Source: Kordiimonas laminariae (lineage in GTDB: Bacteria; Pseudomonadota; Alphaproteobacteria; Sphingomonadales; Kordiimonadaceae). From it: a stretch of 64,000 bases of DNA. Made by a program: the position numbers and the translations under genes. The stretch is taken from the NCBI RefSeq assembly GCF_023008165.1, contig NZ_JAKQZA010000002.1, positions 186,001 through 250,000 on the forward strand, given 5' to 3'. This document shows, piece by piece, positions 18,266 to 26,685 of the stretch. Positions within the stretch are counted from its first letter, which is position 1, and each line of letters opens with the position of its first letter. Below the pieces are notes generated by a model. The model saw nothing but the letters and a program-made list of their open reading frames with translations. It was not told the origin of the DNA and searched no databases.

Positions 18266-18439
18266 GTGTGTTTTCTAGCACAGCCCCTCTCCCTATCCTA
18301 CAGGAAACTAAGGATATTTTTGTTTCCTCACAATCAGGTGAATGAACTGTTGGCGGAACGGCGAAAAGGCAGTATATCTGTGCGCCAATGTAACACGCTT
18401 GAAATATTTCGAGCCTTCGAGTTTGAGGGAATATGGAAC

Positions 18440-19570
18440 ATGGTTGATGTAGTTATTTCAGGTACAGGTGTATTTGTACCGGAAAATAAAATAACGAACG
18501 AAGAATTGGTTGCCGCTTTTAACGACCATGTTGACCAGTTTAATGCAGAAAATGCCGCAGATATTGAAGCAGGCCTCGTAACTGCCAAACAACACTCAAG
18601 CGCGGCTTTCATTGAAAAAGCGTCAGGCATCAAATCCCGCCACATGATTGAAGTTGAAGGCGTGATGGATTTGAACCGTATGATGTCCAAGCTACCTGAA
18701 GAAGCTCACGGTGATCAGGATAAACCGTGTATTCAAGCTGAAATGGGTATTGCTGCCGCTAAAATGGCTATTGAAGCTGCGGGCATTGATGCTGGTGACA
18801 TTGATCATCTTATCTGTTCATCTGCCGTTATGCAGCGGGCCTTCCCGGCAATCGGCATCGAAGTGCAACACCATCTAGGCACCGGTGGATCAGCCCTTGA
18901 TATGGTTATGGGCTGTTCAAGTGCCACATATGGTCTGCTTGCTGGTGTTAATGCCATTAAATCAGGAATGGCTGACCGGGTTCTCATGGTAAACCCAGAG
19001 ATTTTCTCAACCATGGTGAATTACCGGGATCGCGACAGCCATTTCATCTTTGGTGATATCGCTACCGCAGTTGTTCTGGAGCGTGCCGATCTTGCTAAAG
19101 GGAATGACCAGTGGAAAATCACTGGCACAAAAGCTGAAACACAGTTCTCAAGCAATATTCGCTCTCACTATGGCCCGCTAACACGCATTGATGATAACAG
19201 CATGCTACGCAAAGATATGTTCTTTGTTCAGGAAGGCCGCAAAGTATTCAAAGAACTTTTACCGCTTGTAACAGAATTTATCTCAACACAGTTGGAAGCC
19301 GAGGGTCTGAAGGTTTCAGACCTGAACCGCATGTGGCTACACCAAGCCAATATCAACATGAATATGTTTGCTGCTAAAAAACTGCTGGGCCGCGAACCAG
19401 AAACTGATGAAGCCCCAACCGTACTTGATGAATACGGCAATACAGCTGGCGCTGGCTCAATTGTGGCTTTCCATAAAAACCGCGCTGATCTAAAGTCTGG
19501 CGATAAAGGTATTATCTGCTCATTCGGTGCAGGCTATTCAATCGGTAGTTTGCTCGTTGAAAAACTTTAA
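18440..19570 (+). CDS. Beta-ketoacyl-ACP synthase III-like enzyme, copy 1
   Basis: A thiolase-fold condensing enzyme of 376 residues related to FabH. The catalytic triad is visible: Cys159 in MGCSSATYG, His301 in WLHQANINMN and Asn334 in GNTAGAG. Relative to housekeeping FabH it has about 45 extra residues before the Cys (a helical insertion around AFNDHVDQFNAENAADIEAG). It therefore belongs to a distinct KAS III-like subfamily, not the fatty-acid initiating enzyme. The start is the ATG at 18440 with GAGGGA upstream. The longer reading from 18266 adds 58 non-homologous residues. A paralogue follows 39 bases later. The substrate is unknown. Confidence 0.88.
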   Translation: MVDVVISGTGVFVPENKITNEELVAAFNDHVDQFNAENAADIEAGLVTAKQHSSAAFIEKASGIKSRHMIEVEGVMDLNRMMSKLPEEAHGDQDKPCIQAEMGIAAAKMAIEAAGIDAGDIDHLICSSAVMQRAFPAIGIEVQHHLGTGGSALDMVMGCSSATYGLLAGVNAIKSGMADRVLMVNPEIFSTMVNYRDRDSHFIFGDIATAVVLERADLAKGNDQWKITGTKAETQFSSNIRSHYGPLTRIDDNSMLRKDMFFVQEGRKVFKELLPLVTEFISTQLEAEGLKVSDLNRMWLHQANINMNMFAAKKLLGREPETDEAPTVLDEYGNTAGAGSIVAFHKNRADLKSGDKGIICSFGAGYSIGSLLVEKL

Positions 19571-19609
19571 AAACAAGCAAGGCTAAAAAGCCGATAAAAG
19601 GGACATATT

Positions 19610-20740
19610 ATGGGTGGGGTTGTTATAAGCGGCACCGGCGTGTTTACGCCGCCAAATGCTGTATCCAACGAACAACTGGTTGAAAGTTATAATGCTTACG
19701 CAGAAAACTGGAATGCAGATAACGCCGAAGCGATTGCTTCTGGTGACGCGGTAGAAAAACAGCCCTCCTCAGTACCTTTCATTGAAAAAGCGTCCGGCAT
19801 TAAGAGCCGTTACATGATGGAAGGTAAAGGTGCTATCGACGTTAGCCGCATGCACCCTAATCTCTCTGAAGAAGCGCCTGAAAACCCAGTTGATACGCCT
19901 GCCCAGGTTAAGATGGCATTCGCAGCTGCTGAAAAAGCGCTTAAGGAAGCCAAGTTAAAAGGTGAAGAGATTGATATGGTTATCATCTCTGCCTCTGTTT
20001 GGGAACGCTTCCTACCTTCCATGGCTTGTGAGCTACAATCAATGATCGGCGCAAAAGGCTTCGCTTTCGATATGGGCATGGCCTGTTCCAGCGCCACATT
20101 TGGCATCTCTACCGCATGCGATGCACTGCAATCAGGTATGGCTAATAAAGCACTTGTTGTAACAGCGGAATACCTCACACCAGTGATGGATTATGAAGAC
20201 CGTGATAGCCATTTCATTTTTGGTGATTGTGCTGTCGCGATTGTTCTTGAACGAGAAACCGAAACAAAATCAGAAACAGCTTTCCGTATTAATGATCGCA
20301 AGTTGTTTACGGAATACTCCCCAAACATTCAGGTGACGTTTGGTACTCGTAATCTTCTGGTGCCGGAAGATATTTCTGATCCAAAATACCGTTTTAAGCA
20401 GAACGGCCGTGTTGTGTTCCGGGAACTACTGCCAAAGGTAATTGACCTGGTAAATGGGTATTTAGAGAAGAACGAACGCACAGTTGAAGACTACAAGCGT
20501 TTCTGGCTCCATCAGGCGAACATCAACATGAATATTTTCGCCACAAAGAAGCTACTAGGCAAAGAGCCAAGCCAGGATGAAGCACCAATTATTCTTGATG
20601 AATACGCAAATACCGCGGGCGCTGGATGCCTGATTGCTTTTGATAAATACAAGAGTGATTTTAAAACAGGTGACTTAGGTTTGATTTGCTCGTTTGGTGC
20701 CAGTTATTCAATAGGTTGCTTTGAGGTGGAGCGGCTCTAA
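19610..20740 (+). CDS. Beta-ketoacyl-ACP synthase III-like enzyme, copy 2
   Basis: A tandem paralogue of the preceding gene with the same length (376 residues) and the same residue numbers for Cys159 (MACSSATFG), His301 (WLHQANINMN) and the Asn in ANTAGAG. The fixed numbering shows colinear duplication with few or no indels before His301. Both copies keep all catalytic residues, so neither looks like a decoy subunit. They are probably co-transcribed. A heteromer or two chain-length specificities are possible; both ideas are inference. It ends against the convergent GGDEF gene. Confidence 0.88.
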   Translation: MGGVVISGTGVFTPPNAVSNEQLVESYNAYAENWNADNAEAIASGDAVEKQPSSVPFIEKASGIKSRYMMEGKGAIDVSRMHPNLSEEAPENPVDTPAQVKMAFAAAEKALKEAKLKGEEIDMVIISASVWERFLPSMACELQSMIGAKGFAFDMGMACSSATFGISTACDALQSGMANKALVVTAEYLTPVMDYEDRDSHFIFGDCAVAIVLERETETKSETAFRINDRKLFTEYSPNIQVTFGTRNLLVPEDISDPKYRFKQNGRVVFRELLPKVIDLVNGYLEKNERTVEDYKRFWLHQANINMNIFATKKLLGKEPSQDEAPIILDEYANTAGAGCLIAFDKYKSDFKTGDLGLICSFGASYSIGCFEVERL

Positions 20741-21932: not shown

Positions 21933-22057
21933 TCCAGTCCCTCTCTTTTCCCCATGGGTACCTTATTGAAGAAATCAGCTATTTCAAGTGTTTAATCGGC
22001 CTGCAACGATGAATATCAGCGCTTCATCTCTGAATAGAAATTTTTCGCTTGCCTTAC

Positions 22058-22073
22058 TACTACACCTGTAGTA
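22058..22073. promoter_or_regulatory. BlaI-type operator 1
   Basis: TACTACACCTGTAGTA, a perfect inverted repeat with arms TACTACA/TGTAGTA around CC. It matches the TACA-N2-TGTA dyad bound by BlaI/MecI repressors and lies 37 bases upstream of the BlaI start. Confidence 0.85.
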
Positions 22074-22082
22074 TCCATTCTC

Positions 22083-22094
22083 CTACACATGTAG
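22083..22094. promoter_or_regulatory. BlaI-type operator 2
   Basis: CTACACATGTAG, again a perfect TACA-N2-TGTA dyad. Its centre is 23 bases from that of operator 1, about two helical turns, so two dimers could bind the same face of the DNA. Confidence 0.85.
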
Positions 22095-22109
22095 TAGTGG
22101 AGAAATAAA

Positions 22110-22487
22110 GTGGCAGGTAACATTAAGCTAAGCGAGCAGCAATATCAGGTCGTACAAGCTCTCTGGAGTATGGGAGAAGGCTCAGCCCGCGATGTTCAAG
22201 CAAAGTTGTCAAATCTAGGCTTGGCACACACCACGATTGGTACAATCCTGTCGAGACTAGAGAAGCGTGAAGTACTCTCCTCACGTACTGAGGGACGTCA
22301 AAGGGTATATAAAGCTCTGATCACCGATGGTGATGTAAAACGCTCGATGGTCTCCAACCTGATTTCCACACTCTTCAAAGGCGATAGCAAAGCCTTATTA
22401 GCTCATCTGGTGAGCGAAGGTGACATTCATAAATCTGAACTGGACGATATAAAATCACTGTTAGATGGGGGTAAAAAAGATGCTTGA
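22110..22487 (+). CDS. BlaI/MecI-family transcriptional repressor
   Basis: A winged-helix repressor of 125 residues (LSEQQYQVVQALWSMGEGSARDVQAKL, then TTIGTILSRLEKREVLSSR as recognition helix and wing). BlaI proteins dimerise through the C-terminal helices and are cleaved after activation of a partner BlaR1/MecR1. The GTG start at 22110 follows GGAG. The two operators upstream indicate autorepression of the pair. Its end overlaps the M56 peptidase start by 8 bases, so the two are made together. No beta-lactamase lies next to it; the nearest downstream gene is an M19 dipeptidase. Confidence 0.93.
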   Translation: MAGNIKLSEQQYQVVQALWSMGEGSARDVQAKLSNLGLAHTTIGTILSRLEKREVLSSRTEGRQRVYKALITDGDVKRSMVSNLISTLFKGDSKALLAHLVSEGDIHKSELDDIKSLLDGGKKDA

Positions 22488-25410
22488 TTTCTTTATGGAC
22501 TTTCCACTGTTTGATCTGCTTGTCAAATTCATGATCGCAAGTTCTACTCTTTTACTTCTAGTTTGGGTGATGGAAAAAATCAGGCTCATCAACACACCGG
22601 ATTTAGCGGAGAGAGCCTGGAAAGCGGCTATTGCTGGTTCGTTTATTGCCGTTTTACCTTTTACAAATCTAATTTCTCCAGAAGTCGTTATCAACGACAG
22701 AAACATGGTAGAAATCGCGGGCGACATTGCGGAACGTCGTCCTCTCCTAGAAATTTCAACAAAGCAATCTTCTGGTATTGGAGCGTTAGAGGAAAAGCAG
22801 ACAGCACAAGAAAAACTGGATGCTACAATCCTGGAAGAGCAGCGTAACTTGTTCCCTGCTCCTACAAAACCTATTCAAGATACACTGCCTATTCGGGAAG
22901 CAGCTCCAGAAGAAACTCGTACATCTTTTTATGAATTGAGAACGATTGATTTAGCGGTCGTGACCTGGATTGTGCTTGGTTTACTTGCCGTAACGGGCCT
23001 TTTGCTTGGATACCGCAGTGCCATTCACAATTTAGGTAGCCGCGTTCGTGTTGGCGCTGAAGAGAATGCCAATCTTGTTCTTCGTGAAATCTGCGAAGAA
23101 GCTGACATCAAACACGTTCCTTATCTAAGCAAATCAAGTGATATCAACAGCCCGGTATGCTTACCAAAGCGTGAAATTTGCTTACCTGACTGGGCTTTTG
23201 AAACAATGCCACGAGATGAGTTTAAAAGTCTTTTGGCACACGAAATTGGGCATATGCTGAGAAAAGATCCGCAGATGCTGATCGCCCTTCAGCTTTTAAC
23301 CCGCTTCTTTTTCTTTCAACCGCTATTTTTACTGGCGCGCAAGCGGTTGACAGATATTGCAGAACTAGCCGCAGATGAATGGGCTGCAAGCCGCATTCAA
23401 AGCAGCCGTTCAGTAGCAAACGCACTATATACATGCGCCACAAAAATACATGAGACACGACATATAGAATGGGGATTAGCAATGGCTGGAAACAAGTCAA
23501 TCCTGAGGCACCGGGTGGAGCGTCTTCTGAAAGCAGAAGACACTCCATTCAAAACAAGCGCTAAATCTGCAAAGGCACTTGTTAGCGTGGGCGTTATTGG
23601 TCTGAGCTTGGGCATCCCAAGTATCCAATTCGCCGGCGCAGGCAATAGCGAGTTCAACGCTTTTGAACCACTAGAACCAGACTTTACCAATATTCGCAAT
23701 GAAGCCGAACCTAATCTAGGCGAACTGAAAACCTTTGAGATCAAGGCTCCTGAAGTTGCTGTAGCAACCGCTAACGCTGGAGACATCTCAGCGATTAGCC
23801 TTGAAGGTGGCAAACGCGGCATCACCTTTGATCGCAAACGCGATTCAGGTAATATGAATTGGCATGATGGTAAAGACCGCATCAATGTACAGTGGAAAAA
23901 AGGATTTTCCATTGATCATAAAGACAACACTATTTCTGTTGTTAACGGTGGTCAATTCACCCTGAAATCGGAAGATAAAAACGGTGATGAAAGAAAAATC
24001 CGCATCAAGAACGTCGGGGGCGATCGCTCGGTAACATACTGGGTTGATGGCGACAAAACCAAGTTTGATGCAAAGGGCCAAAAATGGCTAAACGCCAGTC
24101 TGGAAAAACTATATTCATATGGCTTTGAAGCAAAAGAACGCATCAAGTATCTGGTGAAAGCCAAAGGCGCCAAAGCCGTTATTAAAGAAATCAATGGCTT
24201 TGAAACTGACTATGTGCGCCGTCTTTACATCTCGGGCCTAGCGGCAACAGCGAAACTGAAATCAGGCGAGGTTTCTGATCTCATTAAGGCCACTTCAAAG
24301 ATAGAGAGCGATTATGAAATGCGCCTTGCTTTCTCTGGTTTGCTTCGTTCCGAGAATAACATTCCATCAAGCATGCTGCCAAAAATCATTAAGGCCGCTA
24401 AGGCAATTGATAGCGACTATGAAAAACGCTTGCTAGCAGATACTTTTATCAAACGCTTTGACATGGACGATAAAAATATCCGCAATCTCATTGATTTGGC
24501 ATCTGACATCGACAGTGACTATGAACTTCGCTTGATGCTGGCACAAGTTCTAGATAGCCAAACCGTTAATAAAGATAACATTGAAAAACTTATCGAGGTT
24601 GCCGCTAAACAGATTGATAGCGACTACGAAATGCGCCTTCTTCTCTCTGAGGCTCTCAAAAACGGTAGCCTAACTTCTAAGGGTATAAACCTTACTTTGG
24701 AGGCAGCTTTTGAAACCATGGACAGTGATTACGAGAAACGCCTTCTTCTAAGCACCCTTATTCAACATAACAAACTGGGTGTAAACGACTGGCTGAAGGT
24801 GATTGAAGCAGCTGCACTAATCGATAGTGACTACGAAAAACGTCTAATCCTGAGCAAGATCAAACGTCAGATGCCGTCTTCGCGCCAGCTAAGTGAAGCC
24901 ATGGAAGAAGCTATCGACACCATTGGTAGCGACCATGAGAGACGTTTGGTTGCCGGAAAGGCTGATAAAGAAAGAGCCGTACGCGCCGCTCGTGCCGCGA
25001 ATAATGAATGGCGCACCCAACTTCGTGAATTACGTGATGTTCAACGCCAACTGGTCAGAGAACAAAGAGAAGTCGAGCGTGAAATGAACCGCGTTATGAA
25101 GGAAGCTGAACGGCTCAAGAAAGAACTCGATAAAGGGCAACTAAATCGCTCAAAAAATGAAAAAGAACTCGAAAAATTCCTGGCCGAACAAGAAGAAAAG
25201 TTCCTGGAATATGATCGTCTTCTTAATGAACAGTCCGGTCTGAGAGATCACATTGGCAACTTAGCAGGTGCGCTTGCTGAACTAGAAGTAAGTATGAACC
25301 AAATACAATTATCGAAGAAGCCAGTACAGGCTCCTCGCCCGGCGGTTCAACCACGTAGTTCAGTGCGTCCATCACCTGCACCAAGGACACCGGAAACCAA
25401 TACTAATTAA
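22480..25410 (+). CDS. BlaR1-like M56 metallopeptidase with C-terminal 8-copy repeat and coiled coil
   Basis: A 976-residue membrane protein. Three N-terminal membrane segments precede the M56 peptidase core, whose zinc site HEIGH is at 254-258, followed by ELAADEWAASR (third ligand region). A fourth segment near residues 365-385 should place the rest in the periplasm, as in BlaR1. BlaR1 has a penicillin-binding sensor there. Here there is a beta-rich stretch (about 430-540), then eight 34-35-residue repeats (574-830), then a charged coiled coil (about 835-945) and a Pro-rich tail. No SxxK/KTG pair is seen in that region. It should cleave or trigger loss of BlaI on sensing an unknown envelope signal. 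Confidence 0.85.
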   Translation: MLDFFMDFPLFDLLVKFMIASSTLLLLVWVMEKIRLINTPDLAERAWKAAIAGSFIAVLPFTNLISPEVVINDRNMVEIAGDIAERRPLLEISTKQSSGIGALEEKQTAQEKLDATILEEQRNLFPAPTKPIQDTLPIREAAPEETRTSFYELRTIDLAVVTWIVLGLLAVTGLLLGYRSAIHNLGSRVRVGAEENANLVLREICEEADIKHVPYLSKSSDINSPVCLPKREICLPDWAFETMPRDEFKSLLAHEIGHMLRKDPQMLIALQLLTRFFFFQPLFLLARKRLTDIAELAADEWAASRIQSSRSVANALYTCATKIHETRHIEWGLAMAGNKSILRHRVERLLKAEDTPFKTSAKSAKALVSVGVIGLSLGIPSIQFAGAGNSEFNAFEPLEPDFTNIRNEAEPNLGELKTFEIKAPEVAVATANAGDISAISLEGGKRGITFDRKRDSGNMNWHDGKDRINVQWKKGFSIDHKDNTISVVNGGQFTLKSEDKNGDERKIRIKNVGGDRSVTYWVDGDKTKFDAKGQKWLNASLEKLYSYGFEAKERIKYLVKAKGAKAVIKEINGFETDYVRRLYISGLAATAKLKSGEVSDLIKATSKIESDYEMRLAFSGLLRSENNIPSSMLPKIIKAAKAIDSDYEKRLLADTFIKRFDMDDKNIRNLIDLASDIDSDYELRLMLAQVLDSQTVNKDNIEKLIEVAAKQIDSDYEMRLLLSEALKNGSLTSKGINLTLEAAFETMDSDYEKRLLLSTLIQHNKLGVNDWLKVIEAAALIDSDYEKRLILSKIKRQMPSSRQLSEAMEEAIDTIGSDHERRLVAGKADKERAVRAARAANNEWRTQLRELRDVQRQLVREQREVEREMNRVMKEAERLKKELDKGQLNRSKNEKELEKFLAEQEEKFLEYDRLLNEQSGLRDHIGNLAGALAELEVSMNQIQLSKKPVQAPRPAVQPRSSVRPSPAPRTPETNTN
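24199..24969 (+). repeat. Eight tandem 34-35-residue protein repeats in the M56 peptidase
   Basis: Copies of [IFM]-x-[ST]-D-[YH]-x-x-R-L begin at residues 574, 608, 643, 677, 712, 747, 781 and 815, steps of 34 or 35. Most read IDSDYEKRLLLS or close to it. The length and alternating hydrophobic pattern suggest a two-helix solenoid like HEAT/TPR. The first and last copies are the most degenerate (FETDYVRRL, IGSDHERRL), as expected for capping repeats. Confidence 0.9.
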
Positions 25411-25439
25411 TCAGGAATTTATACTTCTGTAACCAACTT

Positions 25440-25462
25440 GGGGGCTTTCAGCCCCCTTTTTT
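25440..25462 (+). terminator. Terminator of the BlaI-M56 operon
   Basis: Six-base GC stem GGGGGC/GCCCCC with TTTCA loop followed by six T. It separates the operon from the dipeptidase gene. Confidence 0.92.
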
Positions 25463-25518
25463 CTTGCCGCGTATAAAAAGTACCATACAGTTACAGGTAG
25501 CAAATAGGGGGATAGATC

Positions 25519-26685
25519 ATGAAGTTGCTGAAAAAACTATCGATAGGTCTAGTTGTTATTTTACTGCTAGCATATGGTGCTGGCCGTATCTTTGGACCAA
25601 AAGCAATTGATAGTAAACTCAACCCCTTCCTTGAGTATAATGCATCCCCGATATCAGCAGAGCCCCAAGCATTTCATGATAGTCTTACCATCATGGATTG
25701 GCATGCTGATAGCCTGCTCTGGAACAGAGACTTCCTGAAGCGGAATGACTATGGCTTGGTAGATTTACCGCGCCTGAAAGAGGGTAACATCAGCATACAA
25801 ATGCTTACAACAGTTACTAAGTCTCCGTCAGGTCAGAATGTGCATTCCAACAATGCTGATACCTTTGACAATATCACCATGCTGGCCGCTATACAGGGCT
25901 GGCCTCTATCAACTATCAACAGCCTTCTGGAACGCGCATTATATCAATCTGATAAGTTGACTGATTATGTTGTTGCTTCAGAAGGGCAGCTTGCGTGGAT
26001 TCGTAACCAAAAAGATTTCAAAACTTACCTAAACAGTAACGGTGGCAGTGTTGCGGTATTGCTTGGTACCGAAGGTTCTCACCCCTTAGAGAGTAACATC
26101 AACAATATAGACCGCATGTATAATGCTGGCTTCCGCATGTTTGGGCTTACTCATTTTTTTGATAATGCTCTGGGCGGCTCGCTCCATGGTACCAGCAAAG
26201 CGGGATTAACCGATTTTGGAAAAGCGGCCGTTAAGCGCTTTGATGAGCTGGAAATTATCATTGATTTAGCCCATGCCTCAGAGGAAATGGCATATGATGT
26301 GCTCTCCCTTTCCAATAGACCGCCCGTTGTATCTCATACTGGCCTCAAGGGCGCATGTGATACCCCTCGTAATTTTTCTGATGACCTGATGAAAGCTATT
26401 GCCGCCAAAGGAGGCTTGATCGCCATCGGCTTCTGGGAAACGGCAGTATGTGATCCAACACCCGCTGGCATTGCTAAAACCATCAAATACGGCATTGAAC
26501 TTGTAGGCGCAGATCATATTGCACTAGGTTCTGACTGGGATGGTTCTGTACAAGCTATCCCAAGCAATATGGTTCCCCATATCACCGCAGAACTTCTGAA
26601 ACTTAATGTCAGCAAAGAAGATATCCGCAAGGTAATGGGAGGCAACAGTATTGCCTTCCTCCAAACATGGTTACCTAAAGACTAA
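25519..26685 (+). CDS. Membrane (M19) dipeptidase
   Basis: A renal-dipeptidase family metallohydrolase of 388 residues. The first metal motif is MDWHADSLLW, the bridging region is GTEGSHPLE, and the later ligands fall in LTHFFDNALGGS, IDLAHASEE and VVSHTGLKG. GSDWDGSV is the conserved C-terminal block. A hydrophobic N-terminus (IGLVVILLLAYGAGRIFG) would anchor it in the membrane or act as a signal, so it may act in the periplasm on dipeptides, including wall-derived D-containing ones. It has its own GGGGGA ribosome site and lies after the BlaI-M56 terminator. Confidence 0.92.
   Translation: MKLLKKLSIGLVVILLLAYGAGRIFGPKAIDSKLNPFLEYNASPISAEPQAFHDSLTIMDWHADSLLWNRDFLKRNDYGLVDLPRLKEGNISIQMLTTVTKSPSGQNVHSNNADTFDNITMLAAIQGWPLSTINSLLERALYQSDKLTDYVVASEGQLAWIRNQKDFKTYLNSNGGSVAVLLGTEGSHPLESNINNIDRMYNAGFRMFGLTHFFDNALGGSLHGTSKAGLTDFGKAAVKRFDELEIIIDLAHASEEMAYDVLSLSNRPPVVSHTGLKGACDTPRNFSDDLMKAIAAKGGLIAIGFWETAVCDPTPAGIAKTIKYGIELVGADHIALGSDWDGSVQAIPSNMVPHITAELLKLNVSKEDIRKVMGGNSIAFLQTWLPKD

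Follow-up and report, generated by a model that had tools for sequence, protein, structure and literature searches.

A BlaI-M56 repressor-protease pair of Kordiimonas laminariae with a beta domain and an alpha-solenoid in the sensor position

What does a protease of the BlaR1 type respond to when its outer half is something other than a penicillin-binding domain? BlaR1 itself is chiefly known for sensing beta-lactams. The question is raised by two genes in a 64,000-nucleotide stretch of the Kordiimonas laminariae genome (G000 in our numbering; the stretch is called the window below, and positions without a locus or contig name are counted from its first letter), in which a gene for a BlaI/MecI-family repressor (22110..22487, + strand) is overlapped at its 3' end by a gene for an M56 BlaR1-type membrane metalloprotease of 976 amino acids (22480..25410, + strand). 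Our preferred answer, which we hold with a probability of about 0.6, is that the pair forms a BlaR1-like switch driven by regulated proteolysis, in which the sensor has been exchanged; the switch would read the state of the envelope or wall and, besides its own operon, derepress an S12 hydrolase in some species.

The sensor half of the protease carries most of this argument. An earlier sequence-only reading of the locus had placed there eight repeats of 34-35 residues with the core SDYExRL in lieu of a penicillin-binding domain, and had called for a structure prediction. When sensor residues 447-843 were modelled with 15 homologues in AlphaFold2, we obtained a model with a mean predicted local distance difference test score (pLDDT) of 91.3, in which nine beta strands are followed by about nine helical hairpins arranged as a continuous alpha-solenoid. 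The strands form a predicted periplasmic beta domain (residues 446-527; 23815..24060, + strand; pLDDT 84-95) that sits between the last transmembrane helix and the repeats and that the earlier reading, which took the repeats alone for the sensor, had missed. The HEAT-like solenoid (residues 531-825; 24070..24954, + strand) was delimited from the model, the motif count and the fold neighbors. Its eight [ST]D[YH]xxRL motifs start at residues 576, 610, 645, 679, 714, 749, 783 and 817, each SDYE opening the second helix of its hairpin in the model; the number of repeats and their step of 34-35 residues are as first described, with the exact SDYExRL in six of the eight and degenerate copies at the start (TDYVRRL) and the end (SDHERRL). 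Among 20,000 shuffled sequences none had more than one such motif. The helical hairpin or coiled coil (residues 828-945) and the disordered, low-confidence Pro-rich tail (residues 946-976; together 24961..25407, + strand) are present in the model as the earlier reading had them, but they are lineage-specific rather than part of the conserved core, being absent or different in orthologues.

Searches of Pfam, PHROGs, NCBIfam and PDB returned no sequence match for the sensor, and a search of a plasmid collection gave no match. Its fold neighbors in PDB are a mixture of HEAT/ARM-type solenoids, with VIA-align Z scores of up to 15, which suggests a resemblance in general arrangement. Stacked two-helix repeats are common to both, whereas identity is about 10%, no HEAT or ARM family of Pfam matches and the SDYExRL signature is the sensor's own; the likeness is probably one of general arrangement only. 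Neither the Pfam search nor the AlphaFold2 model revealed a penicillin-binding or transpeptidase domain, and a serine penicillin-binding fold in the C-terminal half is thereby ruled out. Unlike BlaR1 and MecR1, which end in a penicillin-binding domain with an SxxK motif, the Kordiimonas protease ends in a beta domain and a solenoid. Judged by its sensor domain it belongs to the M56 family without being a beta-lactam receptor of the BlaR1/MecR1 kind, and, because its outer half is this different, uncatalogued domain, the switch probably reads an envelope state other than direct penicillin binding.

The remainder of the protein is that of a BlaR1-type protease. Pfam assigns it to Peptidase_M56 (PF05569, E 1.6e-19), and the HEIGH motif noticed earlier lies at residues 254-258. 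AlphaFold2 helices and hydropathy place two transmembrane helices near the N-terminus (residues 9-33 and 40-56; 22504..22647, + strand) and a fourth before the sensor (residues 362-378; 23563..23613, + strand), while the third helix and the cytoplasmic gluzincin domain (residues 154-355; 22939..23544, + strand) were delimited by alignment to the cryo-electron microscopy structure 8exp of Staphylococcus aureus BlaR1 and by invariant columns. In that alignment H254, E255, H258, D263, E295, D299 and R345 coincide with the catalytic residues of BlaR1, where roles have been assigned to HExxH, D210, E242xxxD246 and R294 (PMC9834060). All of these equivalents (H254-H258, D263, E295/D299, R345) are invariant among 16 aligned sequences. 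The BlaR1 autocleavage site S283|F284 corresponds to A334|M335, and both residues are invariant in the aligned family. The full-length model has a mean pLDDT of 74, and its part from the first helix through the protease matches the cryo-electron microscopy structure 8exs of BlaR1 with Z 15.6 over 248 residues. The catalytic residues and the loop position are shared with BlaR1/MecR1, and so, by prediction, is the four-helix gluzincin. The predicted topology is N-out/C-out with four transmembrane helices, as in BlaR1, so that the C-terminal half would be periplasmic, as the sequence-only reading had presumed; the helix count and the BlaR1 homology disfavor cytoplasmic repeats.

The repressor and its operators complete the pair. 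BlaI, of 125 amino acids with a GTG start, matches Penicillinase_R (PF03965, E 1.2e-24), a winged helix, at 87.3 bits against a curated cut-off of 22.6. Upstream of its gene lie two perfect tandem CTACA-N2-TGTAG palindromes, CTACACCTGTAG at 22060-22071 and CTACACATGTAG at 22083-22094, both of which fit TACA-N2-TGTA perfectly, as had been reported from the letters. We used an extended 16-mer model, TACTACANNTGTAGTA, of the form TACTACA-N2-TGTAGTA. Operator O1 (TACTACACCTGTAGTA, 22058..22073) matches it perfectly, and operator O2 (TCCTACACATGTAGTA, 22081..22096), 23 bp downstream, with one mismatch; this layout is kept in relatives. O1 lies in the promoter spacer, directly 3' of a weak -35-like TTGCCT (22049-22054), which we assigned by reading the letters and which the promoter scan of the window did not call. 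With up to three mismatches allowed, all 20 of the 20 alphaproteobacterial blaI promoters have two such sites, mostly at a distance of 22-23 bp, and 18 of the 19 gammaproteobacterial ones have them at a distance of 14 or 24 bp, giving tandem operators at 38 of 39 blaI promoters. The overlap of repressor and protease genes and the TACA-N2-TGTA operators are shared with BlaI/BlaR1 and MecI/MecR1 of Staphylococcus and Bacillus licheniformis. In GC-rich gammaproteobacterial loci (L093, L095, L096, L206, L208-L213, L215 and L217) the tandem operators are preceded, at a distance of about 30-50 bp, by a conserved ATGACTTYCGGCC-like element, which is perhaps an alternative-sigma promoter element.

Non-beta-lactam cues for pairs of this family have a precedent in PetR/PetP of cyanobacteria, a BlaI-family repressor and BlaR1-family protease that answer to copper (PMC7896320). 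The Kordiimonas pair might likewise be metal-responsive: copper or zinc would control the protease, and the solenoid would do something else, for instance anchor the protein. The repressor scores 62 bits with the CopY model, above other equivalogs but under the CopY cut-off, and there is no copper gene at the operator-bearing promoters that we found. PetR/PetP itself serves photosynthetic targets, and the accessible part of PMC7896320 describes no beta-solenoid sensor. We regard a metal-responsive pair as highly improbable.

TACTACA-N2-TGTAGTA is rare outside the pair's own promoter. A genome-wide map of the operator, which the sequence-only reading had proposed, gave only one further perfect copy in G000, at C11:703826-703841, 28 bp upstream of a gene for an S12 protein (PF00144), a beta-lactamase superfamily serine hydrolase of 464 amino acids with a signal-like N-terminus. 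Among its orthologues the operator is present in G013 and absent in G014 and G017. A second S12 group, of 510 amino acids and 54-65% identical, was found in three genomes, G007, G011 and G018, and in each of them it has one or two operators. The S12 operators of these five species (G000, G013, G007, G011, G018) are perfect or have one mismatch. PF00144 has 33 matches in G000, roughly 1% of its genes by a gene total estimated from genome size, and a post hoc estimate puts the probability of two independent S12 groups being hit by chance at about 1 in 10,000. The targets of BlaI/BlaR1 are different from those of Kordiimonas-type pairs, whose operators mark S12 genes in some species and otherwise just the operon itself. 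A TolB-like propeller gene in G002 is a weaker target candidate, and so is a GIN-domain (DUF2807) pair, which has 2-mismatch sites only, in three close relatives. Operator-like sites within coding regions (L004, L006, L007 and others) were taken as chance occurrences. In G446 there are tandem operators at a second place too, which seem, by eye, to belong to another BlaI-M56 pair rather than to a new kind of target.

Since it is members of the beta-lactamase superfamily that recur as additional targets, the pair could be a resistance switch for beta-lactams or wall damage, in which fragments of peptidoglycan or a partner with bound drug, and not the drug itself, are detected by the sensor and the S12 proteins are beta-lactamases or drug-insensitive DD-peptidases. 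An indirect response to beta-lactams would also be in keeping with the ability of BlaI/MecI to bind a peptidoglycan dipeptide directly (PMC3305447). However, AmpH and D-aminopeptidase models give the S12 proteins their best scores, and their class C beta-lactamase score is far under the cut-off; their third motif is HGG or HSG and not KTG (the 510-amino-acid protein has SVTK, YDN and HGG), and the sensor has no penicillin-binding fold. We consider a resistance switch unlikely. As possible cues the sequence-only reading had named a wall fragment, a protein partner or envelope stretch; the S12 targets lend mild support to a wall-related one.

In the switch that we prefer, BlaI would bind both operators, as their conservation suggests, and repress the blaI-m56 operon. 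M56 is predicted to be an inner-membrane protein whose gluzincin domain faces the cytoplasm. Its beta domain and HEAT-like solenoid would face the periplasm, where a cue would bind the solenoid and activate the protease. By analogy with BlaR1, the activated protease would cut BlaI and derepress the operon; in alignments of BlaI to Staphylococcus aureus BlaI (1sd4) and to MecI (1okr), the cleavage point corresponds to H99|L100, near which the cut is predicted to fall. The likeliest cue is a ligand derived from the wall or a partner protein, in either case one that reports the state of the envelope or peptidoglycan, rather than beta-lactam acylation. An envelope or wall cue is our best guess for two reasons: the sensor is of a scaffold type and would be periplasmic, and the additional target that recurs is a hydrolase of the wall type. 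The output would include an envelope hydrolase in those Kordiimonas species that have the same operator before S12 genes (AmpH/DD-peptidase/beta-lactamase superfamily), and in many species self-regulation alone is visible.

Several observations weigh against this switch. The almost invariant Phe at the P1' position of BlaI (PMC9834060) is Leu100 here, the site being H|L as against N|F in known repressors, and it is Leu or Met in all BlaI homologues aligned. On the protease side, the near strictly conserved Tyr261 of BlaR1 is replaced by Val312, and Val is nearly invariant in the family. Both exchanges set the Kordiimonas pair apart from BlaI/BlaR1, and because of them the efficiency and the site of BlaI cleavage are uncertain. 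S12 proteins are, moreover, functionally diverse and include esterases. Finally, most genomes show no additional operator, and an envelope output is therefore seen in some species only. That strong operators are confined to the pair's own promoter in many genomes would also fit a mainly self-regulated protease, with BlaI controlling nothing but its own operon and M56, once its solenoid is engaged, acting on other membrane or cytoplasmic substrates. The S12 operators in five species argue against such a protease, as does the BlaR1 homology, which makes BlaI the expected substrate, and targets with weaker operators could have escaped detection. We judge it quite unlikely.

The distribution of the pair indicates that the sensor can be exchanged while the regulatory chassis remains. 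The pair is not unique to the window: homologues of M56 were found in 27 of 59 relatives, with BlaI directly upstream in nearly all, and the whole unit of BlaI, M56 and sensor behind two operators is present in the majority of the Kordiimonadaceae sampled. A sensor profile was built from a narrower alignment with strict patterns and searched within Pseudomonadota. Of 398 genomes sampled across the phylum 6 had a match, and so did 23 of 200, about a tenth, in the gammaproteobacterial (Lysobacterales-type) order around one gammaproteobacterial match. The gammaproteobacterial sensors, too, form one protein with M56, and BlaI is encoded upstream save at three loci, at least two of which are near contig ends. 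The BlaI-M56 pair is kept across two proteobacterial classes. In genus g3 (L059:8164-10209 and L060:7809-10964) BlaI, the operators, the neighbors and M56 are kept and the C-terminal domain is unrelated, present in about three tandem copies in L060; the sensor profile had no match in the M56 C-terminus of either locus. As the g3 protease domain falls inside the Kordiimonadaceae-side clade, replacement of the sensor is indicated, and the sensor half of the switch is swappable. The genome of the window itself has a second BlaI-M56 pair (L064:8973-10681; contig C21, about 43.5-45.2 kb). Its promoter palindrome is a different one, and where the sensor would be, its M56 protein ends in a peptidase domain of the M23 (LytM) type, which is another case of sensor exchange. 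Two further loci were noticed in passing. At L071:8491-10493 the C-terminus of the M56 of a BlaI-M56 pair is ankyrin-repeat-like by eye. In the alphaproteobacterial locus L094:9274-11096 a stand-alone sensor domain without a protease follows one N-terminal hydrophobic segment; it adjoins a macrodomain gene, and no BlaI or M56 is encoded in the 20-kb sequence that contains it.

Repressor, operator and protease of one kind therefore occur with an uncatalogued sensor in two proteobacterial classes and with an unrelated domain in one genus. This makes it look as if, in Gram-negative bacteria, proteases of the BlaR1 type served as a general chassis for signalling on which the input can be exchanged. 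S12 hydrolases marked by the operator offer a concrete, assayable output, which makes a search for the signal tractable. Our literature search returned no paper describing a BlaI-M56 pair with a beta-solenoid sensor. The sequence-only reading had seen here an undescribed signalling system, a BlaR1-style proteolysis that senses something else. A BlaR1-type pair with a novel sensor variant is indeed what we find, but the BlaI/BlaR1 chassis is known, and so, from PetR/PetP, is a non-beta-lactam cue for such a pair (PMC7896320); the Kordiimonas pair is consequently not the first of its kind. Tentatively, and at somewhat below even odds, we propose that the beta domain and SDYExRL solenoid constitute an undescribed periplasmic sensor domain and exchangeable input module on BlaR1-type proteases, which would read peptidoglycan- or protein-borne envelope stress without acylation by a beta-lactam and set the expression of S12 wall hydrolases.

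An intrinsic terminator (25440..25466, + strand), a 7-pair GC stem followed by TTTTTT, closes the operon. The gene 3' of it (25519-26685) encodes an M19 membrane dipeptidase, which we rejected as an operon member in the window because the terminator intervenes; it adjoins the pair in 14 sampled loci and is kept even where the sensor differs. Upstream of the pair, two tandem ketoacyl-synthase-III-like genes (18266-20740) are syntenic across the family, and on that ground the locus is old there and has been passed on vertically.

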